The notes below the pieces were generated by a model. It made no database searches. It was not told where the DNA came from and saw nothing but the letters and a program-made list of their open reading frames with translations. Position numbers and translations under genes: made by a program. Of a stretch of 64,000 nucleotides of DNA, positions 16,373 through 57,098 are shown in pieces; the first letter of the stretch is position 1; every line of letters begins with the position of its first letter. Source of the DNA: Bacteriovoracaceae bacterium (GTDB lineage Bacteria; Bdellovibrionota; Bacteriovoracia; Bacteriovoracales; Bacteriovoracaceae). The stretch lies in assembly GCA_016786485.1 (NCBI GenBank), contig JAEUWD010000022.1, positions 1 to 64,000 of the forward strand, read 5' to 3'.

Positions 16373-17824
16373 TTAGTGACGCGCCTTAATCTCAGCAATG
16401 TCTTCGGCTTGGCCGGCTTGAAAAATTTTGTCTTCATACCGTTGCAGCTCATACTCAGTTAAAAGTCTGTTCTGTAACGAATAATATGTCAAATCTGGTG
16501 GATAATCGATTCCACAGCTTTTCTTACTTTGATCAATCATTTGCGGCAACTTATCTGATTCAATTTTTGAAACGACATCGTCTTCCATAAAGCGTAAGAA
16601 CATACCGGCCATGAAATTTACTTGTTCTGTCGTAAGTTTTGCTAACATGTCGTGCGTCTTATTCGTTCGAATCGTCATATATTCAAGATAAGGAATAACT
16701 TCTTTTAATTGTTTTAAACGGACTTTAATAAAAGATTTTTCTTTTTCTGTATTGATCTGGGCCTTGCCTTCAAGATAAACACTCAAGTGACGCTTAAGCG
16801 CTTTGACTGATTCATTCATGTGACCTTTCTTTAAATCCTCAAGCGCTTTTGCTTTATCTTTTTCAAGACGAGCAGCCCCAGTTAAAGAAGTACTGGCCGT
16901 TTCGATACTTAAATAACCTGTCTTCATTAACATCCAATACATCGCCGTGTAATAATCCATATTCCACCAGCTAGAACCCTTCTCAAGATAGTTCAGGCGA
17001 TTAGTGAAAACCTTTTGTTGAGCTTTTAAATAATCGAGAAGAACATTTTGTGTTTCCACATAAATGGCCTCTTCGCCCACTTTGGTTGTCATGAACATAT
17101 GAAACTGAGCTGAAACTTTAGTGTTCTTGTCTGATGAGTTATTGAATTGAATTTCATCCACTGCACCTTCAACAACTTCAACTTTTACGACTGGACCAAA
17201 AACATCAATCACGTTTTTGCCATTTTTATTTTCAGGTGAATAATTTTTTAAGTAGCTTGTAATCGCTTCTTGAACTTTTTTTACATCGTTAACTGCCACT
17301 GGTTTCTTCGCAGCTTCAGCGGCTTTTTTCTGCTTGGTTTTTTCTAATAAAGAAGCATGATATAAATCACTAACAATCGCTTCTAAACCTGTTTTATTTT
17401 TTTCGATATCATTAAGATAAAACTGAGTCTTCTGAGCAGCATCATTTAAACTATCCATGATGACCAATTGTTTTACTGTCGCAAGATAGTGACGGTATTG
17501 ATCAACTGAAAGTGATGGGTCGATAGGCTCTGGTGGCATAGCATCGATTTCTTTCATCGAACGCACCATACTCGACCTAATAATATCTTTGACGACCGCT
17601 GAATAACCAGGATTCCAAACACGGTCTTGTTGCTCTTTTAAATCCAATGAGAATGCCGGTAAATGCGACATTCCTAGCGATTTAAGAATCTTGTCTGCGC
17701 GCAGCTGGGCGGACGCTTCAACCTTTTGAGGCTCCTTAAAGTAGCACTGTCGGTATTCCTTTAAAGTTGCCGCAAAAAGCGAAGAAGTTATAAAAAATGA
17801 GAGAAGGCAAATTTTTGTTTTCAT
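16373..17824 (-). CDS. Exported helical protein of unknown family, operon gene 3
   Basis: A 483-residue protein with a signal peptide (MKTKICLLSFFITSSLFAA). The mature part is rich in Lys/Glu/Leu and looks mostly helical, with likely coiled-coil segments (for example LLEKTKQKKAAEAAKK near residue 160). Only a few cysteines. One-base overlap with the upstream secreted gene shows translational coupling. Its stop lies three bases before the phhA start on the same strand, so phhA and phhB may be read from the same transcript. No family recognised. Confidence 0.65.
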   Translation of the reverse strand: MKTKICLLSFFITSSLFAATLKEYRQCYFKEPQKVEASAQLRADKILKSLGMSHLPAFSLDLKEQQDRVWNPGYSAVVKDIIRSSMVRSMKEIDAMPPEPIDPSLSVDQYRHYLATVKQLVIMDSLNDAAQKTQFYLNDIEKNKTGLEAIVSDLYHASLLEKTKQKKAAEAAKKPVAVNDVKKVQEAITSYLKNYSPENKNGKNVIDVFGPVVKVEVVEGAVDEIQFNNSSDKNTKVSAQFHMFMTTKVGEEAIYVETQNVLLDYLKAQQKVFTNRLNYLEKGSSWWNMDYYTAMYWMLMKTGYLSIETASTSLTGAARLEKDKAKALEDLKKGHMNESVKALKRHLSVYLEGKAQINTEKEKSFIKVRLKQLKEVIPYLEYMTIRTNKTHDMLAKLTTEQVNFMAGMFLRFMEDDVVSKIESDKLPQMIDQSKKSCGIDYPPDLTYYSLQNRLLTEYELQRYEDKIFQAGQAEDIAEIKARH

Positions 17825-19434
17825 TATTCAAACCCACTGAACATATAGTCAAACCAATCACGAGGATTGTACTTATCCCAACCACCACGCTTGTCGTAGT
17901 TTTCAGGTGCGGTAAAGTTAATTTCTAAATCTTTTGAGAAGTAATGTTTTTCATTTCTTCCCCAACCTAATTGCTTTATCGGCCAACCACAGCTCCACCA
18001 GCCAGCTTCTGGATCATCTTCACAAGATTGCTTATAGAGACCTACACCACGCTGATACATTGAAACTTTTAATTTATATTTACGTTTAGGTTTTAAATAA
18101 CCATCGTCAAAAATATTTTTGTCAGGCTCGGTTGGATTGTAGATAACAATTTCCCATAAATCTGAAACTTGTGTTTCTTCATTATTTGAAAGCATGTGCA
18201 AATTTGGAACAATAGCTTCACCGTCATTTGTATGTAAGTCATTCCAATGCACTTCCCACCAATAACTTGGATCTTCGAAAAGTCTTACGCGAACTTGTGT
18301 GTTTTTCCAGAAGGCTTTATCTTTTTTACTCTCCGTATCTGCTTTTTGGTCGGCTGGATTATGGTTTTCACCTTCTTCATATTTGACTTGTTCACGGGCA
18401 GCGTTTTCACGAGACTGAGCGGCCATCAAAGAAATCATCGCACCTGATGTATCATCTAAGCGCAATTTCCAAGGAATAGCTTTCGCGACATCCAAGCCTT
18501 CATCGTTTTTATCAGCTTGCCACAGTAAGGCCTCCATCGCATTTCCTTCCCAATCAATTGGTAAACGGAAAGCATTTGGTGTGGCCTTGGTACGATCACG
18601 TTTTACTGTAATAATTCTTGCATGAATCCCTAAATTTGCATCTTGCAAACATTCAGTACTTCCACTGGTCAGTTTCACATCTTTAAGATTATATTCATTC
18701 CACGCATCGCCAATCGCTAAATGCGGAGACATGACACGCGAGCGAGTACCATTATTATAAGTTTGGACGGCTTCAACTTCACCAGGAAGTAAATCGTACT
18801 TATTAGGAATCGCGTCAACGTAACCTTCAGAATCAAGATTCCATTCAACTTCCGTTGGACGAACAAACTCCCAAGAATATTTCATCGTTTCGTAAGAGCA
18901 ATCAAGTGATGTCGTATGAGTCACATCGATATCACAAGTATTGGCGTGAGAAACCATATGACACTCTTGATGCGAACCCGTTCGCTTACCTTCCTTATCG
19001 TAATCATCCACTTGATGACATTCTTCATCTAAGTGAGAACCACACTCAAAAGAGCTGGTTACCGTTTCACACTCTTCATATTCCCAAACTTCAACCGTTT
19101 GATAAGGAACCGTTCCAGCATGAGTAATTAAAGGAATTTGACGTTTTTTAGTATAGGCTTCTTTACGATCATACTTCACATTATCCGCCCACTCAAAAAA
19201 TGAAAGTTCTTTTTGAGGTAAACGAATGTAGTTATCCACATTTCCCGTACACTCTAAACGTTTATCACTGCTATTGCGTACGCGATCACGAGGAAGCGTT
19301 CGCCCACCACGACATATACTGCGTGTATCGTATGTTGGTGAATGATCGCATTTATTTCCAGAGTAATAGTAGCTGGCCTGGGCCAGTTCGAACTGACCCA
19401 GAGCTGCCACGAATATAAGTGAAAGTTTAAACAT
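17824..19434 (-). CDS. Exported cysteine-rich protein of unknown family, operon gene 2
   Basis: A 536-residue protein with a signal peptide (MFKLSLIFVAALGQFELAQA). The first 200 mature residues are unusually rich in cysteine and histidine (for example YEECETVTSSFECGSHLDEEC and HQECHMVSHANTCDID is a separate nearby stretch), suggesting several disulfides or metal sites. The C-terminal half is beta-rich with many tryptophans. It sits between two other large exported proteins in an operon. No family recognised; surface or periplasmic location is inferred from the signal peptide and the disulfide potential. Confidence 0.65.
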   Translation of the reverse strand: MFKLSLIFVAALGQFELAQASYYYSGNKCDHSPTYDTRSICRGGRTLPRDRVRNSSDKRLECTGNVDNYIRLPQKELSFFEWADNVKYDRKEAYTKKRQIPLITHAGTVPYQTVEVWEYEECETVTSSFECGSHLDEECHQVDDYDKEGKRTGSHQECHMVSHANTCDIDVTHTTSLDCSYETMKYSWEFVRPTEVEWNLDSEGYVDAIPNKYDLLPGEVEAVQTYNNGTRSRVMSPHLAIGDAWNEYNLKDVKLTSGSTECLQDANLGIHARIITVKRDRTKATPNAFRLPIDWEGNAMEALLWQADKNDEGLDVAKAIPWKLRLDDTSGAMISLMAAQSRENAAREQVKYEEGENHNPADQKADTESKKDKAFWKNTQVRVRLFEDPSYWWEVHWNDLHTNDGEAIVPNLHMLSNNEETQVSDLWEIVIYNPTEPDKNIFDDGYLKPKRKYKLKVSMYQRGVGLYKQSCEDDPEAGWWSCGWPIKQLGWGRNEKHYFSKDLEINFTAPENYDKRGGWDKYNPRDWFDYMFSGFE

Positions 19435-43743: not shown

Positions 43744-45729
43744 TTAATTTTTTATACGGGGTAGCACATAAAGGTCGTAAATCGCGCCAAAGAAAATAGT
43801 CAATGTCATGCTGGCACCAAATTGACTTATTGGTAAAAAATAATGAGGGATAAAACAGCAAAATCCTAGAATCAAAATCAGACTCGAGATGAGAACCGGC
43901 ATATAAATCGCCTGGTTAAGCTCATCGTGGTGAAATTTTTCTTTCGAAGCATGGAGCAGATGGATAGTAGCATCCACAATTATTCCGAAGGAAACACTGA
44001 AGGTCATAATGGTGGCCACATTCAATGAAAGCCCGAAGAGATAAAAAGCGATAATTGTCATTAAGGGCGGGCATAGGTTGACCAAAACAAATATAAAAAA
44101 ATCGCCCAAACTCCTAAAAGAAAATCCAACAATGAGACTTACGACCAACAAACCCATAAAAAAACTATTGGCCAATGTTTGCAACAGATTCTTTTGTGAA
44201 TTCATTAAAGAGTAATTAAGACCTCCAAACTGATAGTAATATTCGCTTTGCTCCAACTTGTTGCGGATTTTTCCGATAAGTTTTAAATAATCTTCTGTAT
44301 CCAGTGATTGAGAGAGAATTGTTAATGGGTAATAATCCGAATTAAAGCTTTGTTTAAGATTACTGGGAATTTGTGAAATCAGCGCAAAAGTAGAAACTTC
44401 AAAATCGGGCAACTTATATTCAGCCGTATAAATGTAGTTGGCTTGTTTAACCATTTCAATTTGTGAAATTATCTTGGTCTCTGCTGGCAAAATCTGAAGC
44501 AACTCTTGCTCTAGCTTTTCAAGCTTTTTATAATCTCTAACTGAAATCTTCTCATCGATTTTGTGCAATCTTAATTCGAGAATGGGTGTGCCAATCAGAT
44601 TCTTTTCAACAAATTTAATATTACTCACAACCTCATTATGCTCAGGGAAAAAATAAAGTGCCTCAACTTGGATCGGAAGCTTTAAAAAAATCCAAGGTCC
44701 GACAAGTAGTGGAATGATTAAAAAGGCATAGGCCAACCACTTGGGTAATTTTATTTTTTCGATATTTATTTTTGGCTGCCAGATTTTAATATTTGTCTTG
44801 AGTGGTAAAAAAATAAAAACAATCAAATTAATGACGGAAGCGATGAAGAGTGAGAACGTCGACATTTGAGCAAACTGAATAATCGCCGGGATATCACTAA
44901 TCGAGAGCGAATAAAGACCTAAGAGTGTTGTCAGTAGCATAATAAGAACTGGTATCAATTTTTTTCCAACCAGCACTTTTTTACTTTGATAGTGAGCAAA
45001 ACCATAAAAAAGATGAAAATTTAAACTTAGGATAACCACAAAATTAATCAACGGAGTTAAACTCGATAAAATATTACTCTCTTCATAAAATAACTTGAGC
45101 GAAACTTGAGCGATAGCAATCGACAAGAGAGAAAAATGAAACAAATAAAGTGTAATAAAAACATTTCTGAGAAAAAATAATAAAAAAGCAAAAGAGATAA
45201 TAATAAGCGATGGCAAAACATACAGCTTAATACTCTCTGTGGCCTTACCTATCTCGTAATTCAAATAAGAAAGACCTGAGTAAACAGTTTTATCTGCCAA
45301 TGACTTAGCACTAAGCTCTTCAAAATAGGCTTTGAAGTAACCCCGCTTGGATTCCGGCACTTTCAGTATTTGCGTAAAACTATTGTCCGTTATCAATTTC
45401 ATCGGAAGCATCGGGTGTTTCTGATAAAAAGCTTGTTGGGCCGCAATCTCTGGTAGCTTTGAAACAGACTCCGAACTTATGAATTCGGCCGTTTCAAAAT
45501 GAGCTTCAGTAATCGATGAAATTCTTTCTCGCTCACGTTGCATCAACTGAGCATCAGCAGCGTTGAATAGACTATGGATAATAAAGATATCGTCTTCGAC
45601 TTTAAAAAGATTCTTAGTCGATTTTGAAATCAGCAAACTTTCTGAATTATTTTGTGGCAAATCATCAGTCCAAACCAAGCCTGAAACAATAACAAGATAA
45701 GCCAGACAAAGGTAAATTTTAGTTTGCAT
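43744..45729 (-). CDS. RND/MMPL-type membrane exporter
   Basis: A 661-residue protein with a typical two-repeat RND layout: membrane helix at 5-22, a periplasmic loop to ~165, five or six helices (to ~320), a helix at ~332-350, a second loop to ~515, then five helices to the end. The TM10 proton-relay acid is present in SFGIIVDATIHLL, but the TM4 counterpart (VVILSLNFHLFYGF) lacks the usual Asp. Last gene of the phenolic-lipid operon, overlapping yceI by 11 bases; by analogy with MMPL lipid pumps it probably moves the polyketide-derived lipid across the envelope. Confidence 0.8.
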   Translation of the reverse strand: MQTKIYLCLAYLVIVSGLVWTDDLPQNNSESLLISKSTKNLFKVEDDIFIIHSLFNAADAQLMQRERERISSITEAHFETAEFISSESVSKLPEIAAQQAFYQKHPMLPMKLITDNSFTQILKVPESKRGYFKAYFEELSAKSLADKTVYSGLSYLNYEIGKATESIKLYVLPSLIIISFAFLLFFLRNVFITLYLFHFSLLSIAIAQVSLKLFYEESNILSSLTPLINFVVILSLNFHLFYGFAHYQSKKVLVGKKLIPVLIMLLTTLLGLYSLSISDIPAIIQFAQMSTFSLFIASVINLIVFIFLPLKTNIKIWQPKINIEKIKLPKWLAYAFLIIPLLVGPWIFLKLPIQVEALYFFPEHNEVVSNIKFVEKNLIGTPILELRLHKIDEKISVRDYKKLEKLEQELLQILPAETKIISQIEMVKQANYIYTAEYKLPDFEVSTFALISQIPSNLKQSFNSDYYPLTILSQSLDTEDYLKLIGKIRNKLEQSEYYYQFGGLNYSLMNSQKNLLQTLANSFFMGLLVVSLIVGFSFRSLGDFFIFVLVNLCPPLMTIIAFYLFGLSLNVATIMTFSVSFGIIVDATIHLLHASKEKFHHDELNQAIYMPVLISSLILILGFCCFIPHYFLPISQFGASMTLTIFFGAIYDLYVLPRIKN

Positions 45730-46291
45730 CTAAGTTCACATCAAAATCAATATCAAACTTATCGTTAACACTCGCGATACTGATAGAAGGGTCCGCAATT
45801 TTAAGCTCTTTAAGGCTAAAATGCGTCTCGCCTTCCACTCGATAACCACTTTCTGATTTTTTTATTTCAAGTTCAATCGGGACTTCCACCTGATTTTCTC
45901 GGACCTTCAAAATACCGACAACTTGCTGCTTGCCTTCTTGCATATCCAGAGCTTTTGACAACTCGAAACTTATTTGAGGATATTTTTTAGTCTCTAAACA
46001 GAGCTCATACATCTTTTCATTTCTGGAACCACTATCCGTATCGATACTCTTAGCTTCGATGATGACTTTCAATTTTTCCATTTTAAGTTTTGTTAACTGA
46101 TAATCAATTTTGAATTTTTTCACATAGCCATCAAAGTCAGTCGTCACAAGACCCAGTTTGGTACTTTCTCCTTCAAATTTTAAATAATTTTTTGCTTCCT
46201 TTGCTTCATCGTAGCTAGCAAAGGCAAAGATTTTTTCGGTAGCGAAACTTGAAAATGAGAACAAAGAGCAAAAAATCATAATCACTAACAT
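45719..46291 (-). CDS. YceI-family lipid-binding periplasmic protein
   Basis: A 190-residue protein with a signal peptide (MLVIMIFCSLFSFSSFATE). The YceI beta-barrel pattern is clear: LKFEGESTKLGLVTTDFDGYVKKF, KMYELCLETKKYPQISFELS and the end DPSISIASVNDKFDIDFDVN. The family binds polyisoprenoids or other amphiphiles inside its barrel. In this operon it would be the carrier between the inner-membrane enzymes and the exporter. Confidence 0.85.
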   Translation of the reverse strand: MLVIMIFCSLFSFSSFATEKIFAFASYDEAKEAKNYLKFEGESTKLGLVTTDFDGYVKKFKIDYQLTKLKMEKLKVIIEAKSIDTDSGSRNEKMYELCLETKKYPQISFELSKALDMQEGKQQVVGILKVRENQVEVPIELEIKKSESGYRVEGETHFSLKELKIADPSISIASVNDKFDIDFDVNLDAN

Positions 46292-46294
46292 AAA

Positions 46295-46816
46295 TCACCT
46301 CTGGGCTAAAATTTTATTTTCTAATTTGATCCGTTTCCATAAAAATATCAGTTTAATCATAAGAAAAGTAGTTAATGTTATGTAGCATTTAAAAAGTAGT
46401 GGGATAAAAATAAATTCAAAAACAACCGCAAGATAATTAGGATGTTTTATATATTTGTAAATCCCCGTTCTTACATTTACCCCTCTTTCAATTTCAAGGA
46501 TTGGAATGGTCCAGTAGATGCCTAATTCTTTCATGCTTAAGCCTCTCAGGACAAAAGCGATAAAAATAAAAAAAATGCAAAGAAAAAGCCAGCTGCCTGA
46601 AATCGTCATTTGCTCTGAGTATATAAACTCAGTCATAAGTGAAATAAACCATAAGACATGAATCCCCATCATGAATTTCTTCTCTTTGAGTGAATGATTC
46701 ACAATCTTAGGAAACTGCGCTGAAAGTATTCTTTCGTTTCGTTTTGATAGACGCATTTCGATCAAACGATAAATAATCATTACCGTTATAAAAGTTGTAA
46801 ATACTTTTAGTTCCAT
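46295..46816 (-). CDS. Isoprenylcysteine-methyltransferase-like membrane methyltransferase
   Basis: A 173-residue membrane protein with four to five helices and the ICMT/PEMT-type signature GIYKYIKHPNYLAVVFEF, where the HPNY segment helps form the SAM site. In the streptomycete srs cluster the analogous SrsB methylates the alkylresorcinol made by the type III PKS; the gene order here supports the same role. One base from the polyketide synthase gene. Confidence 0.82.
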   Translation of the reverse strand: MELKVFTTFITVMIIYRLIEMRLSKRNERILSAQFPKIVNHSLKEKKFMMGIHVLWFISLMTEFIYSEQMTISGSWLFLCIFFIFIAFVLRGLSMKELGIYWTIPILEIERGVNVRTGIYKYIKHPNYLAVVFEFIFIPLLFKCYITLTTFLMIKLIFLWKRIKLENKILAQR

Positions 46817-46817
46817 A

Positions 46818-47876
46818 TTACTTTAATTGCTTTAAAAGTGTTATTTCTGAGTTAAATCCAGGTCCCATCGCCATCAAGAAACCCATTTCACCTTTTTGAC
46901 CTAGTGGTCTTGTAAGGCTTCGCTCCAAGACATTCAAAACAGAAACTGATGACATATTTCCATTCGCCGCCAAGCTTTGCCAGCTATGTTGAAAATGTTC
47001 ATCTGTTAAACCTAAACTTGATGCCAGCGCTTTCAAAACCTTCGGGCCTCCTGGATGAGAAACAACAAATTTAACATCACGTGAACTCAATTTATTTAAA
47101 TCGAGTATGTGTTGACTATTTTTAGGAACTTCATTCTCAACCAGTTGTGCCACATCTCCACTTAAAACAATTTGAAAGCCTGTTTCAAGAATATTCCATC
47201 CCATGGTCGTTTCAGTTTTTGGATAAAAGAAGGCCTGATAATCGACAACTTCAAATCCTGCCGTTTTGGCCAAAGGATGTTCATCTCCGACCAACAGCAC
47301 TGCTGCTGCACCATCACCAAAGAGAGATGTTCCAACAAAATTGGCAACACTCACATCACGCAGTTGGAAAGTTAAAGAGCAAAGTTCAAGCCCCACTAAA
47401 ATCGCAGCTTTTTTGGGATTGGCTTTTAGAAAATCATGTGCACGATTAATCCCAGCACATCCACCTAAACAACCAAATCCAAACAAAGGCAATCTTTTAG
47501 CGTTGGTCGAAATATTCAACTCGTTCATTAAAATCGTATCAAGACTAGGAATCGAAAAACCAGTAACTGAAGTTGTTACTAAATAATCGATCTCGCTGCC
47601 ATTCAGACCAGTTTTTTCAAACAATTCGAGAACTGCCTTTTTGGCCAGCTTACTTCCATGCTCTTGCCACAATTGATTACGTTGAACCAAAGTGGCGAGC
47701 TCGGTATATTTTTCGATCGGCAAAACTAAGTGGCGTTCTTTGACTTGCACATTTTCAAAGAAGCTTAATAACTTTTTACTTTGCTTAGGCCATAATGTGG
47801 CAATAAAATCATAGATCTGGTTTTGTGAATAAACATTTTCAGGAAAAACTGTCGTAGCTTGAATAATTTTTGTCAT
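46818..47876 (-). CDS. Type III polyketide synthase (alkylresorcinol/alkylpyrone type)
   Basis: A 352-residue chalcone-synthase-fold enzyme. The catalytic triad is complete: Cys136 (FGFGCLGG), His274 (VSHPGGPKVL) and Asn307 (ANGNMSSVSV). It condenses malonyl units onto an acyl starter and cyclises the chain. Because of its bacterial neighbours (ICMT methyltransferase, FAD hydroxylase) it is probably a fatty-acyl-primed phenolic-lipid synthase like SrsA or ArsB. Starter length and ring type cannot be told from sequence by eye. Confidence 0.9.
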   Translation of the reverse strand: MTKIIQATTVFPENVYSQNQIYDFIATLWPKQSKKLLSFFENVQVKERHLVLPIEKYTELATLVQRNQLWQEHGSKLAKKAVLELFEKTGLNGSEIDYLVTTSVTGFSIPSLDTILMNELNISTNAKRLPLFGFGCLGGCAGINRAHDFLKANPKKAAILVGLELCSLTFQLRDVSVANFVGTSLFGDGAAAVLLVGDEHPLAKTAGFEVVDYQAFFYPKTETTMGWNILETGFQIVLSGDVAQLVENEVPKNSQHILDLNKLSSRDVKFVVSHPGGPKVLKALASSLGLTDEHFQHSWQSLAANGNMSSVSVLNVLERSLTRPLGQKGEMGFLMAMGPGFNSEITLLKQLK

Positions 47877-47886
47877 ATAAACCCCT

Positions 47887-49059
47887 CTAGAATAATAGTT
47901 TTTTTAACCCTTGAATAGGACTATAAATATTGCCAACAACTCCGATAAAAATATTTGCGCGCTCTTGTTTCTTCTTCAGAAAATTTGCGATGAGGTAACA
48001 AAGAAAAGGTGAACGAATCACATATTGAAAAATTCTATTGAGAATTCCTTTTTGAAAGTTTTGCTGCTTTTTCTTTTTCTTATAATTTTCTAATGCTAAA
48101 CCGATGTCCGATTCTAAATGAAGTTCGTTGGCAAGAAGTTGAGCACTCGATAAGGCATAGGTCATCCCTTCACCAGTTAAGGGATCTAAAAAGCCGGCCG
48201 CGTCTCCGACATACGCCAATTGCTCGCCAGCTAAAAAAGAATTCGAACTTGAAATAGGAAATAAAGATTTAATTTCTTGGCTTGGATTTAATTTTTCAAA
48301 CATCCCCAACAAGAGTGGACTTTGTTCAATATAATAATTCATCAACTCTGTCGGTGAATTGAAAGCTTTAAGCTGATCTTTGTAGCAGACAATCGAAAAA
48401 TTTATTTCATTGGGAGAAATCGGATCAAGTCCACAGTAAGCTCCATCCTTAAAAATATGCATTTGACCTATTCGCGTATAATCACATAAATTTTTGAGTG
48501 GTAAAAAGCAGTGAAGTGCAATTCTTCCATTCTCGTTAATTTTATTATGACCCAATATTTTGGCGACTTTAGAGTTCAGTCCATCAGCGGCTATCAATAA
48601 TTCGGCCCGATAAAATTCTCCGTTTTCCGTTTTGACATTCCAGAGGCCATCCGTTTTTTCTACCGCCTGTACCGATGTTCCTGACACAAATTTGGCTGAC
48701 GGTAATTCCAGGTATTTTTTTAAAAGAAAACTATCTAGATATTGGCGGTTAATAGATAAGCCATGCTGCTCTTTTTTGTCATTTGGGAAAAATGAAAGAA
48801 TCTGATGTAGGCCCGGACTCACGATCTTCATTCCATACAACGGACTGCCTATTTTCGATAGTTCCTCATAAAAACCAATTTGTTTGAGCACCCTAACACC
48901 CATCGGAGTTAAATACTCACCACAAACCTTGCGAGTAATAGCTTTCTTTTTATCCAGTAATATTACATTCCAGCCTTGTTTGGTCAGCAGGTAAGCCGAT
49001 AAGATACCTGCCGGTCCGGCCCCTATAACAATTGCTGATTTAGTGTTTGGCATTTTCAT
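47887..49059 (-). CDS. FAD-dependent monooxygenase (geranylgeranyl-reductase-like fold)
   Basis: A 390-residue flavoprotein: FAD loop IVIGAGPAGILSAYLL near residue 10, second FAD strand LLIAADGLNSKVAKILG near 160, and the GD motif YVGDAAGFLDPLTGEGMTYA near 285. It resembles SrsC, which hydroxylates the alkylresorcinol to a quinone. First gene of the five-gene operon; ATG 49059 (AAGAGGT upstream) or the in-frame ATG six bases on could be the start. The divergent regulator lies across a 92-base intergenic region. Confidence 0.83.
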   Translation of the reverse strand: MKMPNTKSAIVIGAGPAGILSAYLLTKQGWNVILLDKKKAITRKVCGEYLTPMGVRVLKQIGFYEELSKIGSPLYGMKIVSPGLHQILSFFPNDKKEQHGLSINRQYLDSFLLKKYLELPSAKFVSGTSVQAVEKTDGLWNVKTENGEFYRAELLIAADGLNSKVAKILGHNKINENGRIALHCFLPLKNLCDYTRIGQMHIFKDGAYCGLDPISPNEINFSIVCYKDQLKAFNSPTELMNYYIEQSPLLLGMFEKLNPSQEIKSLFPISSSNSFLAGEQLAYVGDAAGFLDPLTGEGMTYALSSAQLLANELHLESDIGLALENYKKKKKQQNFQKGILNRIFQYVIRSPFLCYLIANFLKKKQERANIFIGVVGNIYSPIQGLKKLLF

Positions 49060-49108: not shown

Positions 49109-49126
49109 ATCCTACATATGTAGGAT
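49109..49126. promoter_or_regulatory. 18-bp perfect palindrome, candidate LuxR-type operator
   Basis: ATCCTACATATGTAGGAT reads the same on both strands, between the FAD gene (-) and the LuxR-type gene (+). The size and half-site (CCTACAT) are like boxes bound by LuxR-family dimers. On the minus strand it abuts a -10-like TATATT (49104-49109) and on the plus strand overlaps the spacer before TATAAA (49130-49135), so it could control both genes. Confidence 0.7.
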
Positions 49127-49151: not shown

Positions 49152-49715
49152 ATGCCTATAGTACGAAAGTCTAATAAAGAATTATTATTGGGAATGAGTA
49201 TATGCGTTTTTATAGTCGTTTTTACAGCAGTCGATATTACCCATGATATTCAAGATAACCTACCGACACGCCATTATCTGCATGAGCTTTTTTTAGCCAC
49301 CCTGGCCTTAGCTTGGTTGGTTCACCAAATCCTTTTTATTTTAAAACAAAGAAACAGCATCTTAGATATTAGTAATAAACTAAATATTGTAACCTCTGAA
49401 CGAAATCATTATCTTGAAAAAATTCATCTTATAAAAAATGACTTTCAACAAATTATACAAAATCAGTTTAATTTATGGGGATTATCAGATTCCGAGCGAG
49501 AAGTAGCACTGTACTTAATCAAGGGTGCTTCCATGAAAGAAATTGCAGAATGGCGTAATACAAGTGAAACCACCATTAGACAGCAAGCTTTATCTGTTTA
49601 CAAAAAAGCTCACTTAGCAGGTCGACAAGAGCTGGCTGGTTACTTCCTGGACGATTTATTTCAAGTTAACACGCCTGACATAGCAGACGCCGAAAAGATA
49701 ACCTCAAGCATATAA
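49152..49715 (+). CDS. Membrane-anchored LuxR-family transcription regulator
   Basis: A 187-residue protein: two membrane helices (LLLGMSICVFIVVFTAVDI and LHELFLATLALAWLVHQI), a coiled coil (about 75-110), then a LuxR-type HTH (LWGLSDSEREVALYLIKG, MKEIAEWRNTSETTIRQQA, VYKKAHLAGRQEL). There is no ligand or receiver domain, so the signal is probably sensed in the membrane or by the short loop. Divergent from the phenolic-lipid operon with a palindrome in between, it is the likely regulator of that operon. Confidence 0.83.
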   Translation: MPIVRKSNKELLLGMSICVFIVVFTAVDITHDIQDNLPTRHYLHELFLATLALAWLVHQILFILKQRNSILDISNKLNIVTSERNHYLEKIHLIKNDFQQIIQNQFNLWGLSDSEREVALYLIKGASMKEIAEWRNTSETTIRQQALSVYKKAHLAGRQELAGYFLDDLFQVNTPDIADAEKITSSI

Positions 49716-52009: not shown

Positions 52010-53200
52010 TTACCCTCTCAGTTTATGTTTATGAATATAAGCTTGAATTTCATTCGTAAAATCTTCCATTGAATCTGATTTCTTTTGTAACTGACAACCA
52101 CTGTGCTCAAGACTCATTCCCGGAATGAGTATTTTTAGTTTTTCACGAGCTAATTTTTCACATGATTTGCGATCATTTTTAATATCTAAACTCTGACAAA
52201 GCTCCATCCAATAGGCTTGATCTTCCTCTCGTGCGTTACGTTTTTCGATAAAATAGTCTGCAAGCAATTCTCTGAACTCTGATGTGTCGATATTCTTATC
52301 TAATTTTAGCTTCTCGATTGCTTCTAATTCGGCATTTTGAATTTCAAAAGTCGCGGCGACTTTTCTCTTTAATGGTTCTAAATTTTCCAGACGCTCGTCG
52401 GCCATTTTTTTGTCTTCGGCTTCAACCAGTTCATTCACAAGAGCTAGTAGCGCATCTCTTTTTACTAACCACTCATCATGACCTTTCTCATTTTCATCAA
52501 TATAAGTCATATCTGTATTATTTAAAAAGGCTTCGACTTGCTCTTTGCTCTCTTGATATTTTAAATGACTTAATAAGGTTTTCCTTAAATTATCAACATG
52601 CGAGGCTTGACCATCGGCCCAATACTTTTGACTCGCTAATTGCTCGAGTCTAGCCGCTTTTTTCTTTTTACTTTCAAACCAGTGACCTTTTGCTAAGGCC
52701 TTCACTTTATCATCTTCTTTCTTTTCAACTTGTTTTCCAGTCGAGAAAACTGAAACATCGTAGTTAAGACTTATTTCACGTTTCTTTTTTTCTTCTGCTG
52801 TAACAATTTTATCATTCAACACATCGGCTTTTAGCATGATTAAATCTTGATACTCATTAAATTCATCGGCCGTATCCACAAAACTCTGACTCAAGGCTTT
52901 TTCACGTTTATTGATATACTCGTTCTTCACCATTTCCAGTGAAGCTTGATGACAACTTTGACTCCATTCTGTGTGATCTGGTCGCTTAATACAGAACGCT
53001 TTAGTATCGAGTGAAAAACTTGGGTGACAAGCAATGGTATTTTCAAACACACAAAGCTCTTTGGCCTTGAGATACTCTTCAGAATAACACCCATATTGGG
53101 TCATTACACCTTTCCAGCCTGAAACTAAGCATGACTTCGCTTGGGCATGAGAGAAGGTAGTAACCAAGAACACCAAAAGGCATAGAATAGTGTTTTTCAT
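52010..53200 (-). CDS. Exported coiled-coil protein of unknown family
   Basis: A 396-residue protein with signal peptide MKNTILCLLVFLVTTFSHAQA. The N-terminal 80 mature residues contain seven cysteines (CLVSGW, YGCYS, ELCVFENTIAC, AFCIK, QSCHQ), suggesting disulfides; the rest is long, charged helix with probable coiled coil (KKREISLNYD, EKKEDDKVKAL and similar) and three more cysteines near the end. No family recognised. First of two coupled genes. Confidence 0.65.
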   Translation of the reverse strand: MKNTILCLLVFLVTTFSHAQAKSCLVSGWKGVMTQYGCYSEEYLKAKELCVFENTIACHPSFSLDTKAFCIKRPDHTEWSQSCHQASLEMVKNEYINKREKALSQSFVDTADEFNEYQDLIMLKADVLNDKIVTAEEKKKREISLNYDVSVFSTGKQVEKKEDDKVKALAKGHWFESKKKKAARLEQLASQKYWADGQASHVDNLRKTLLSHLKYQESKEQVEAFLNNTDMTYIDENEKGHDEWLVKRDALLALVNELVEAEDKKMADERLENLEPLKRKVAATFEIQNAELEAIEKLKLDKNIDTSEFRELLADYFIEKRNAREEDQAYWMELCQSLDIKNDRKSCEKLAREKLKILIPGMSLEHSGCQLQKKSDSMEDFTNEIQAYIHKHKLRG

Positions 53201-53316: not shown

Positions 53317-54777
53317 ATGCGAAACTCCATTATTTTCCAGTTAAATCAACAGGTTTATCAACTCAGTGGTGAACAGGTTTTTATGACAGTTGCAGACTTC
53401 CTGCGCTACCAAGCAGGCCTGACAGGAACTAAGATTGTCTGCGCCGAGGGTGACTGTGGGGCATGCAGTATTTTGGTGGCACGTTTTAATAAAGGCAAAC
53501 TGACTCATCATCGGGTGATTAATTCTTGTATTACTTTTATGTACTTACTCGATGGTCATCACATCATTACGGTTGAAGGTTTGAAAGAAAGCGATGAACT
53601 ACATCCCGTGCAAGCAGCGATGGTGAATACTCACGGCGCCCAGTGCGGTTATTGTACTCCTGGTTTTATTTGCGCACTTGCGGGAGTGGCGGATAAGGCC
53701 AAACGTGAAAAGAAAAAACTCACACCAGTGAAAGTCAAAAATGCCCTCACCGGAAACCTTTGTCGTTGTACGGGTTACGATTCAATTATAAAAGCTGGAT
53801 GTAAAACAGATTTAAAAATGACGAAGCCACTTAAAAATAAATACGACACGAAAGAATTAGTAAAACTGCTCGAAAAAAACAGTAAGAAATCAGTCGAAAT
53901 TCGTTATAAAAATAAAGTCATTTTCCTACCGACGACTCTGGCCGAAGCCGTAAAAATTAAAAATGAACATTCTGATCTGCGCATAATTTCTGGTGCCACT
54001 GATTTAGGGGTCCTTTCAAACAAAGGTAAAACACAATTAATAAAACTGATGTCACTACATTTGATTGAAGAATTATATCAAATGAAAAATATGAAAAACA
54101 CTATTTTAATTGGTGCAAAAAATAGTTTAGACGAAGTCGAGAAAATCACACAAAAAGATTTCCCAGAATTTTCAAAGTTGTTACATATTTTTGCTTCACC
54201 ACAGATTAAAAATAATGGAACTTTAGTTGGGAACGCGCTAAATGCTTCTCCCATTGCTGATACCATTCCTTTCCTGAAAGTTTCACAGGCGCAAATTGTT
54301 TTACAAAGTGTTCTAGGTGAACGCACTTTAAATATGAATGATTTCTACTTAGCTGGTTATAAACAACTCGATATTAAACCAAATGAAATCGTAACCAAAA
54401 TTATTCTACCGAAAACTAAAAAGAGTTTTAAACTTTATAAAATTTCCGCTCGTCGCGATTTAGATATTTCGGCCGTTACCATGGCCGTTTCATATCAATT
54501 AGAGAAGAAAACAATTAGCAACTTCGCTATCGCCTTTGGTGGGGTGGCCGCTTCCGTTATTCGTTTACCTGAAATTGAAAAAATGCTCGAAGGCAAAACC
54601 TTCACAAGTAGCTTGTTTAAACAAGTGGCTGAAACGGTCTCAACACAATTAAAACCTTTAAGTGATGTGCGTGGTAGCGATGTTTATCGTCAACTCGTGT
54701 GCAAAAATCTGGTCTTAAAATTTTGTGATGAAGTTCACGCGGAAGAAGGCTGGAAACGTAACGAGGTTTTAGTATGA
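53317..54777 (+). CDS. xdhA: Xanthine dehydrogenase small subunit (Fe-S and FAD)
   Basis: A 486-residue subunit. The N-terminal 170 residues carry two [2Fe-2S] clusters: Cys42, Cys47 and Cys50 (CAEGDCGAC) plus a later Cys in the first, and HGAQCGYCTPG with LTGNLCRCTGY in the second. From about residue 195 comes the FAD domain with ISGATDLGVLSN and IASPQIKNNGTLVGNALNASP. It passes electrons from the molybdenum subunit to NAD+ or a quinone route. Four-base overlap (ATGA) with xdhB. Confidence 0.93.
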   Translation: MRNSIIFQLNQQVYQLSGEQVFMTVADFLRYQAGLTGTKIVCAEGDCGACSILVARFNKGKLTHHRVINSCITFMYLLDGHHIITVEGLKESDELHPVQAAMVNTHGAQCGYCTPGFICALAGVADKAKREKKKLTPVKVKNALTGNLCRCTGYDSIIKAGCKTDLKMTKPLKNKYDTKELVKLLEKNSKKSVEIRYKNKVIFLPTTLAEAVKIKNEHSDLRIISGATDLGVLSNKGKTQLIKLMSLHLIEELYQMKNMKNTILIGAKNSLDEVEKITQKDFPEFSKLLHIFASPQIKNNGTLVGNALNASPIADTIPFLKVSQAQIVLQSVLGERTLNMNDFYLAGYKQLDIKPNEIVTKIILPKTKKSFKLYKISARRDLDISAVTMAVSYQLEKKTISNFAIAFGGVAASVIRLPEIEKMLEGKTFTSSLFKQVAETVSTQLKPLSDVRGSDVYRQLVCKNLVLKFCDEVHAEEGWKRNEVLV

Positions 54778-57098
54778 GCGTAGGCGTCGATACTAAACAC
54801 GATTCAGCTGTCGCACATGTTACCGGCGAAAGTATCTTCATTGATGATAGACCTGCGCTACGTGGTGAATTGTTTGTGGGAATTGTCGGCGCACCTATTG
54901 CAAGTGGAACACTTCTTGGCGTTGATACGAACCAAGCCTTAAAACATCCTGACTGTGTTGCCGTTTATACGGCCAAAGATCTGGCCCATAAAAAATGGGG
55001 ACCGGTTATGCATGATCAACCCATCTTAGTCGAAAAAGAGATTGGTCATATGGGTGAACCAGTGGCACTGATCGCTTCAAAACGCCGTGAAAGTGTTGAG
55101 GCCATCATCAAGCTGGTAAAAGTCAAAACTAAATCGACTCCAGCTATTTTTACAATTCAAGAAGCCAAACAAAAAGGTTCCATTCTTTATAAAGCACAAA
55201 CGCCTTTTGTTCAGGGAAATTTTGATAAAGCTTTTCAGAATGCTCCTCTAAAAATTCGTGGAACTTTTAGTTGTGGAGGGCAAGAACATTTTTATATGGA
55301 ATCCCAAGCGGCCGTGGCTTACCCCTTAGAAAATGGGCAAATCGAAGTTCATTCTTCCAGCCAACATCCGAGCGAAACGCAACGAGTTGTTGCCGAGGCC
55401 TTAGGTCTTAGACTCAACCAGGTTGTTTGTATCGTGAAAAGAATGGGTGGCGGTTTTGGTGGTAAAGAATCTCAAGCAGCGCCAATCGCAGCTTACGCAG
55501 GATTAGTCGCGGCCAAACAAAATCGTGCAGCTCGCTGTATTTTAACTAAAGATCAGGACATGAAAATGACGGGTAAGCGTCATCCGTTTGAAAATGAATA
55601 TGAAGTGGGGTTTGATCACGATGGAAAAATCCTGGCACTGAAAGTGATGTTGCAATCTGATGGCGGAGCCTATCTCGATCTTTCTGCTTCAATCTTAGAG
55701 CGTGCCATGTTTCACATGGATGGAATTTATTATTTAGAAAATGTTCATATCGATGGTGTTTGTTATAAAACTAATAATCATTCAAATACTGCCTTCCGAG
55801 GTTTCGGTGGCCCACAAGGCACCATGACCATGGAATGTATCATGGAAGAGATCGCACAAGTCTTGAAAAAGGATGCTGCCCAAATTCGTAAAGTAAATCT
55901 ATACCAAAACGACAAAGTTAGAACGCCTTACGGTCAGTTAGTCGAAAATAATATGTTGCCGGCGATTTACCAGCAACTCATAAAGAGTTCAGATTATAAA
56001 AAGCGTTTAAAGGAAATTACACAATTTAACAAAAAACGTACTGGTATCGTACGCGGAATTTCGATAACCGGGACTAAATTTGGAATTGCTTTTACCGCAC
56101 GTTTTCTGAATCAAGGAAATGCGCTGGTGAATTTACATCTGGATGGTACCGTTCAAGTCAGCACCGGTGCAACGGAAATGGGCCAAGGTGTGAATACGAA
56201 AATTCAACAAGTGGTGGCCTACGATTTAGGACTAAATTTAAATCAAGTTCAAGTTATGCCTACCTCCACAGAAAAAAATCATAATACTTCACCGACCGCC
56301 GCTTCGAGTGGCGCGGATATCAATTGTGCTGCTGCTCTTGAGGCCAGCCAAAAAATAAAAGCACGTCTTACCGCTCTGGCGAAAGAAATTTTTGCCGGTA
56401 AAAATCCATCGGCCCTGGAAGAATTTCAAGTGGGTGAAGGTATGCTAGATGAAAAAATTGTTTTTAAAGATGGAAAAATCACCGATGTGAAGACTAAAAA
56501 AAGTTTAGCACTTTTGGATGTGATCAAAACGGCTTACTTCAATCGTATTTCCATGGGAGCTTACGCATTCTTCAAAACGAAAAATTTAGGATTTGATAAG
56601 GCGACAGTACAAGGTCGTGCCTTTAACTATTACACTCAAGGCATGGCCGTGAGTGAAGTGAGTATTGATGAATATACTGGTGAAGTAAAAGTTTTACGCA
56701 GTGATATTTTGATGGATTTAGGTCGACCACTTAATCCAGGTATTGATCGTGGTCAGGTCATTGGCGCCTTCGTCCAAGCACAAGGCTGGGTGACGACGGA
56801 AAATCTTTATTACGATAAGGAACGTCATCTGGTTTCCCATTCACCAACCACTTATAAAATTCCTAACGTCCAAGATATTCCACGTATACTGAAAGTGGAT
56901 TTCATCGAAAATAATGACGTTAAAAACAACGTCTTTGGCTCCAAGGCCGTAGGCGAACCGCCTTTCCTCTTAGGAAGCAGCGTTTGGACCGCGGTTAAAC
57001 ATGCCCTCAGCTTCCGTGCTGGTGAAAAGCTTGTAGAAATCACCTCACCTGCTACCAGTGAAGTTGTCTTACGAGAGCTAATTAAGCTAAAAAGCTAG
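54774..57098 (+). CDS. xdhB: Xanthine dehydrogenase molybdopterin subunit
   Basis: A 774-residue molybdenum hydroxylase subunit: GGGFGGKESQAAPIA near 224, AFRGFGGPQGTMTME near 341, ATEMGQGVNTKIQQ near 464, TSPTAASSGADINCAA near 504 and GSKAVGEPPFLLG near 722, the last with the catalytic glutamate. These are the xanthine oxidase signatures; it hydroxylates hypoxanthine to xanthine to urate. Closely coupled with xdhA and followed by xdhC. Confidence 0.93.
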   Translation: MSVGVDTKHDSAVAHVTGESIFIDDRPALRGELFVGIVGAPIASGTLLGVDTNQALKHPDCVAVYTAKDLAHKKWGPVMHDQPILVEKEIGHMGEPVALIASKRRESVEAIIKLVKVKTKSTPAIFTIQEAKQKGSILYKAQTPFVQGNFDKAFQNAPLKIRGTFSCGGQEHFYMESQAAVAYPLENGQIEVHSSSQHPSETQRVVAEALGLRLNQVVCIVKRMGGGFGGKESQAAPIAAYAGLVAAKQNRAARCILTKDQDMKMTGKRHPFENEYEVGFDHDGKILALKVMLQSDGGAYLDLSASILERAMFHMDGIYYLENVHIDGVCYKTNNHSNTAFRGFGGPQGTMTMECIMEEIAQVLKKDAAQIRKVNLYQNDKVRTPYGQLVENNMLPAIYQQLIKSSDYKKRLKEITQFNKKRTGIVRGISITGTKFGIAFTARFLNQGNALVNLHLDGTVQVSTGATEMGQGVNTKIQQVVAYDLGLNLNQVQVMPTSTEKNHNTSPTAASSGADINCAAALEASQKIKARLTALAKEIFAGKNPSALEEFQVGEGMLDEKIVFKDGKITDVKTKKSLALLDVIKTAYFNRISMGAYAFFKTKNLGFDKATVQGRAFNYYTQGMAVSEVSIDEYTGEVKVLRSDILMDLGRPLNPGIDRGQVIGAFVQAQGWVTTENLYYDKERHLVSHSPTTYKIPNVQDIPRILKVDFIENNDVKNNVFGSKAVGEPPFLLGSSVWTAVKHALSFRAGEKLVEITSPATSEVVLRELIKLKS

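Follow-up and report, generated by a model that had tools for sequence, protein, structure and literature searches.

A putative self-regulated operon for the synthesis, carriage and export of a phenolic lipid in Bacteriovoracaceae

The described systems closest to the locus studied here are the srsABC operon of Streptomyces griseus and the pkqABC operon of Mycobacterium smegmatis, in each of which a type III polyketide synthase (PKS), an ICMT-like methyltransferase and a FAD enzyme are encoded together; PkqA-PkqC yield alkyl benzoquinones (PMC9927152). An operon of the planctomycete 'Saltatorellus ferox', whose type III PKS makes alkylresorcinols in C. glutamicum, shares with our locus a PKS, methyltransferases and a lipid/isoprenoid-binding protein, but it has two methyltransferases and a lipoprotein, and an exporter is not reported there (PMC10896814). 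The hidABC hierridin operons of picocyanobacteria also hold a methyltransferase, an oxidoreductase and a type III PKS, although their PKS lies on a different branch of the published tree and neither carrier nor exporter is reported (PMC10896814). In the myxobacterial alkylpyrone cluster a PKS is found with an ICMT, and a FAD enzyme is close by in Corallococcus loci, but there an AMP-ligase lies between, no YceI gene was seen, and the product is filed as an alkylpyrone. In the BcnA/LcoA peroxyl-radical system of Burkholderia a YceI lipocalin is likewise tied to a membrane-enzyme gene, with fusions known, but the partner is a cytochrome b561 and lipid synthesis genes are absent (PMC9113575). The HpnN hopanoid and MmpL3 transporters have the 12-TM RND lipid-transporter fold of our exporter, which is a smaller protein, about 12% identical, and would carry another cargo. 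With the exception of a single planctomycete operon that includes a lipid-binding protein, our literature search returned no paper linking a type III PKS with a YceI protein or an MMPL-type exporter. To our knowledge, how neutral phenolic and quinone lipids cross the periplasm of Gram-negative bacteria is poorly understood, and the YceI proteins, whose ligands are known, have been placed in few clear pathways.

The window analysed here is a stretch of 64,000 nucleotides from a Bacteriovoracaceae genome of 2.98 Mb that is 98% complete. On its minus strand, between positions 49059 and 43744, five genes follow one another; 10, 1 and 3 bases separate the first four, and the YceI and RND genes overlap by 11 bases. 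They encode a FAD-dependent oxidoreductase/monooxygenase of 390 aa (49059-47887; Pfam FAD_binding_3, 1.5e-19), a type III PKS of 352 aa (47876-46818; Chal_sti_synt_N, 9.5e-20, and Chal_sti_synt_C, 2.2e-17), an ICMT-family integral-membrane methyltransferase of 173 aa (46816-46295; ICMT, 1.2e-17), a YceI-family lipocalin of 190 aa with an N-terminal signal sequence, predicted to be a periplasmic lipid or quinone carrier (46291-45719; YceI, 4e-15), and an RND/MMPL-type transporter of 661 aa, a predicted lipid exporter (45729-43744; sub-threshold HpnN/HAE3 models and predicted structure). All five ORFs are intact and their families are backed by Pfam or predicted structure, in agreement with an earlier note on this DNA, which had described five tightly packed genes here. 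That note had also taken the first three genes for an srs-type enzyme set and the catalytic triad of the PKS for intact. Both readings hold, as the same three families are adjacent in the Mycobacterium and Streptomyces operons (PMC9927152), and all 17 sequences of a family alignment keep Cys136, His274 and Asn307. The window operon differs from srs/pkq in starting with the FAD gene, and no YceI, module-type RND or regulator neighbour was seen in the Actinobacterial trio loci examined. Elsewhere in the window, genes for a xanthine dehydrogenase/aldehyde oxidase-type molybdopterin enzyme (FAD/[2Fe-2S] and MoCo subunits) lie near the module at 53317-57098, and large ORFs of 483, 536 and 396 aa at 16373-19434 and 52010-53200 have no Pfam match.

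The synthase has both Pfam domains and the Cys-His-Asn triad of type III PKSs. Its residue W227 aligns exactly with Gly284 of ArsC and Trp281 of ArsB, both in an alignment with wild-type and G284W ArsC and in a 132-row alignment, in which 112 of the 132 PKSs carry Trp at this position; the srs/pkq synthases share it. The site is the aldol-versus-lactone position (PMC6274091, PMC9927152); Trp281 of ArsB favours resorcinol formation (PMC6274091), and ArsC Gly284 is mutated to Trp in structure 3vs9. W227 thus agrees with the Trp criterion of alkylresorcinol synthases, which is insufficient alone, since Pks11 of M. tuberculosis also has Trp. W227 and the srs/pkq type of the operon both favour a resorcinol or quinone product, which we consider quite probable, and a methylated alkylquinone is the favoured prediction. 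A DpgA identity for the PKS (NCBIfam NF042429) was rejected, as the score of 178 bits lies far below the equivalog cut-off of 425. The named records with the closest PKS, from Bacteriovorax and Bacteriovoracaceae, were found by an alignment-based scan, whereas a single-sequence scan of genome contigs for the PKS gave no match.

Alternatively, what YceI binds and the exporter moves could be a methylated alkylpyrone, in line with Pks11 and the myxobacterial cluster. Pks11, an alpha-pyrone synthase despite its Trp, is the best PDB match and nearest solved relative of the window PKS (1e-72), and in the tree it falls in the same superclade, as does the Corallococcus PKS-ICMT-ligase-FAD lineage. Alkylpyrone clusters are moreover conserved in Corallococcus (PMC12766979). 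However, W227 and a dedicated flavoenzyme better suit hydroxylation of a resorcinol, a ring hydroxylase would be unnecessary for a pyrone, and pkq/srs trios of the same kind yield quinones, so that an alkylpyrone seems unlikely to us.

The tailoring enzymes bear on the same question. The ICMT gene is absent in several loci of the family, and in one of the loci a UbiE/COQ5-type methyltransferase, identified by Pfam, is found beside the PKS at the place expected for ICMT (L035:8855-9619), with a similar-looking gene in another (L161:3063-3827), hinting at a quinol-like substrate. The window FAD protein shares the motifs CGE-x-L-x-P and GDAxGxxDxxTGEG with the flavoenzymes of Mycobacterium and Streptomyces PKS-ICMT-FAD operons, to which it is about 22-27% identical. 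Its best NCBIfam match is the geranylgeranyl-reductase superfamily, below cut-off, and since such reductases are the top-scoring models, ring hydroxylation by this enzyme is uncertain. Related PKS-ICMT loci (L046, L049, L067, L069, L072, L075, L085 and L139) also contain an AMP-binding acyl ligase, identified by Pfam in L049 and L067 and often accompanied by a small ACP, suggesting a dedicated route of starter loading.

The AlphaFold2 model of the YceI protein (pLDDT 88) is the 8-stranded barrel of YceI lipocalins and is matched by Foldseek with probability 1.0 to TT1927b (1wub), BcnA (5ixh) and E. coli YceI (1y0g). YceI lipocalins hold octaprenyl lipids, isoprenoids or ubiquinone-8, and BcnA and cytochrome b561, whose genes may also be fused, guard against lipid peroxidation (PMC9113575). 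In at least five loci of the family the ICMT and YceI genes are fused: both Pfam domains lie in one ORF in L057/L132, L063 and L064/L134, and custom profiles find the fusion in L043, L133 and L149. From these likenesses we infer that the YceI protein of the module is a carrier of the PKS-derived lipid. In two loci an additional membrane protein is encoded immediately before YceI (L066:7638-8408 and L071:261-1067, the latter with weak PEMT similarity), possibly a second methyltransferase.

Sequence support for the family of the exporter is weak, with a sub-threshold Pfam ACR_tran match (5.6e-5) and NCBIfam HpnN and HAE3 models matching below their cut-offs; the HpnN score, 38.6 bits against a cut-off of 751.9, indicates that the protein is no HpnN and is HpnN-like in fold only. 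The AlphaFold2 model (pLDDT 85) has 12 TM helices and, on the periplasmic side, two small domains, and Foldseek matches it to MmpL4/5, HpnN, MmpL3 and NPC1-type proteins, which places it in the MmpL/HpnN class of RND transporters. Its direction of transport and energy source are presumed from the superfamily. Similar gene content is found outside the family: YceI, an MMPL/Patched-type exporter and a FAD enzyme lie near the PKS in a locus of Planctomycetota (L083, by Pfam), YceI and an MMPL/Patched exporter in one of Acidobacteriota (L082), and YceI in L076, and four further planctomycete-like loci look similar by profile. The exporters of these Planctomycetota- and Acidobacteriota-type loci form a clade apart, those of Bacteriovoracaceae a clade of their own.

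The presence of an exporter also bears on where the lipid would act. A quinone of this type might be an alternate respiratory carrier kept in the inner membrane, with YceI shuttling or repairing it and the RND protein merely balancing membrane content, as polyketide quinones are alternate electron carriers in low-oxygen M. smegmatis and in Streptomyces spores (PMC9927152) and ubiquinone is bound by YceI proteins (PMC9113575). Yet the Actinobacterial trio loci examined have no such YceI or RND neighbours, and a role in the inner membrane needs no exporter so strictly tied to the PKS, and we therefore hold this reading to be improbable. Another reading, which we hold to be very improbable, is that the RND protein does not export an envelope lipid but pumps out a small bioactive phenol, such as an antibiotic or predation factor, for efflux or to protect the producer itself. 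Pumps are common in secondary-metabolite clusters and the family includes known predators, but the predicted structure, with its small periplasmic domains, resembles MmpL, HpnN and NPC1 and not an AcrB-like tripartite efflux system, no adaptor or outer-membrane protein gene lies within the operon, and the pairing with YceI points to a ligand that is highly hydrophobic.

That carrier and exporter belong with the synthase is best seen across the family. Among 115 Bacteriovoracaceae genomes, 47 encode a module-type PKS, scored at 260 bits or more, and 41 a member of the exporter subfamily, scored at 400 bits or more with the next lower match at 207; 40 genomes have both, 7 the PKS alone, 1 the exporter alone and 67 neither (Fisher p=1.6e-22, with genomes treated as independent), so that the exporter occurs in 40/47 genomes with the module PKS vs 1/68 without. 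The sole genome with a module exporter in which no module PKS was found (G073, locus L169) is 81% complete. At the 33 PKS loci flanked by at least 5 kb on each side, the exporter is found in 29/33, YceI in 28/33, the FAD enzyme in 27/33, ICMT in 22/33 and the regulator in 19/33, and no module partner was found at any of the six control loci of an ArsC-like type III PKS of the same family. This ArsC-like class, with Trp at the cyclization position, was found with the Pfam model in seven family genomes (L027, L031, L032, L034, L036, L037 and L040); as a different enzyme whose partners are absent, it was rejected as a module member. Related clusters are present in the named strains Bacteriovorax sp. 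DB6_IX and BSW11_IV.

The earlier note had proposed a search for the same five genes in the same order. The parts do stay together, but their order is not kept: the 49 loci, spread over many genera, show 24 layouts, some shortened by contig ends. With this recurrence and the co-occurrence of exporter and PKS, the association goes well past what chance would give. Since the genes are kept together despite being shuffled, joint function is the simplest explanation, and co-occurrence, reshuffled order and the ICMT-YceI fusions agree with the note in counting carrier and exporter as genuine components. Its word 'complete' was too strong, as several relatives lack ICMT or have another gene in its place, the operon has no outer-membrane partner gene and the regulator was overlooked; as a whole, that reading is partly supported. 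Two deep PKS lineages are present among module loci (28-33% identity to the window enzyme), and the exporter tree disagrees with this split, with second-lineage exporters nested among first-lineage ones and strongly supported branches forcing at least two changes between PKS lineages. The PKS tree separates the two lineages, but an AU test is compatible with a single clade (p 0.23), and for this reason it is only suggested that the synthase was exchanged while carrier and exporter stayed constant.

Divergent from the operon lies the gene for a membrane-anchored LuxR/GerE-type regulator of 187 aa (49152-49715, plus strand). Its Pfam match is GerE (2.3e-6), and the model of the NCBIfam LIC13292 family scores under its cut-off; the protein has two hydrophobic segments near its N-terminus and an HTH at the C-terminal end. 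The gap between regulator gene and operon contains a perfect 18-bp palindrome, ATCCTACATATGTAGGAT (49109-49126), which occurs once in the genome even when up to three mismatches are allowed. The earlier note mentions neither the regulator nor the palindrome. In all, 17 divergent regulator/module intergenic regions share a dyad motif, TAGGACATATGTCCTA, with a log-likelihood of 90 against a mean of 22.7 +/- 2.0 and a maximum of 26.9 for 15 shuffled sets, which were run with fewer random starts than the real set. Scans for sigma-70 promoters and terminators gave nothing reliable. We infer that the operon is under the control of this regulator through the palindrome, its candidate operator. A paralogue of the regulator is encoded elsewhere in the host genome (G000:C5:11527-12021), and many genomes of the family have such paralogues.

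On balance, we think it somewhat probable that these genes form a self-regulated module of Bacteriovoracaceae that makes, carries and exports a phenolic lipid. The type III PKS would build a 5-alkylresorcinol by condensing (methyl)malonyl units onto a long-chain acyl starter; the membrane methyltransferase would methylate this product and the flavoenzyme hydroxylate its ring, giving a methylated alkyl-hydroquinone or quinone at the inner membrane. In the periplasm the lipid would be bound by the YceI lipocalin, and the proton gradient would power its transfer by the RND/MMPL transporter from the inner towards the outer membrane, where it would most likely be an envelope lipid and redox-active antioxidant. 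The membrane-anchored regulator would act on the operon from the palindrome in the shared gap.

In this module, synthesis, carrier, exporter and regulator are joined in one genetic unit, and enzyme and carrier are sometimes one polypeptide; with related clusters in named strains, the cargo of the carrier and the direction of the exporter are directly testable. It is conceivable, if doubtful, that the module is a dedicated path by which a polyketide quinol crosses the envelope: once synthesized at the inner membrane, it would pass to the lipocalin through the physical coupling of methyltransferase and YceI seen in the fusions, and be pumped to the outer membrane. There it would be a renewable, vitamin-E-like shield in a predatory lineage, with counterparts in Planctomycetota and Acidobacteriota.
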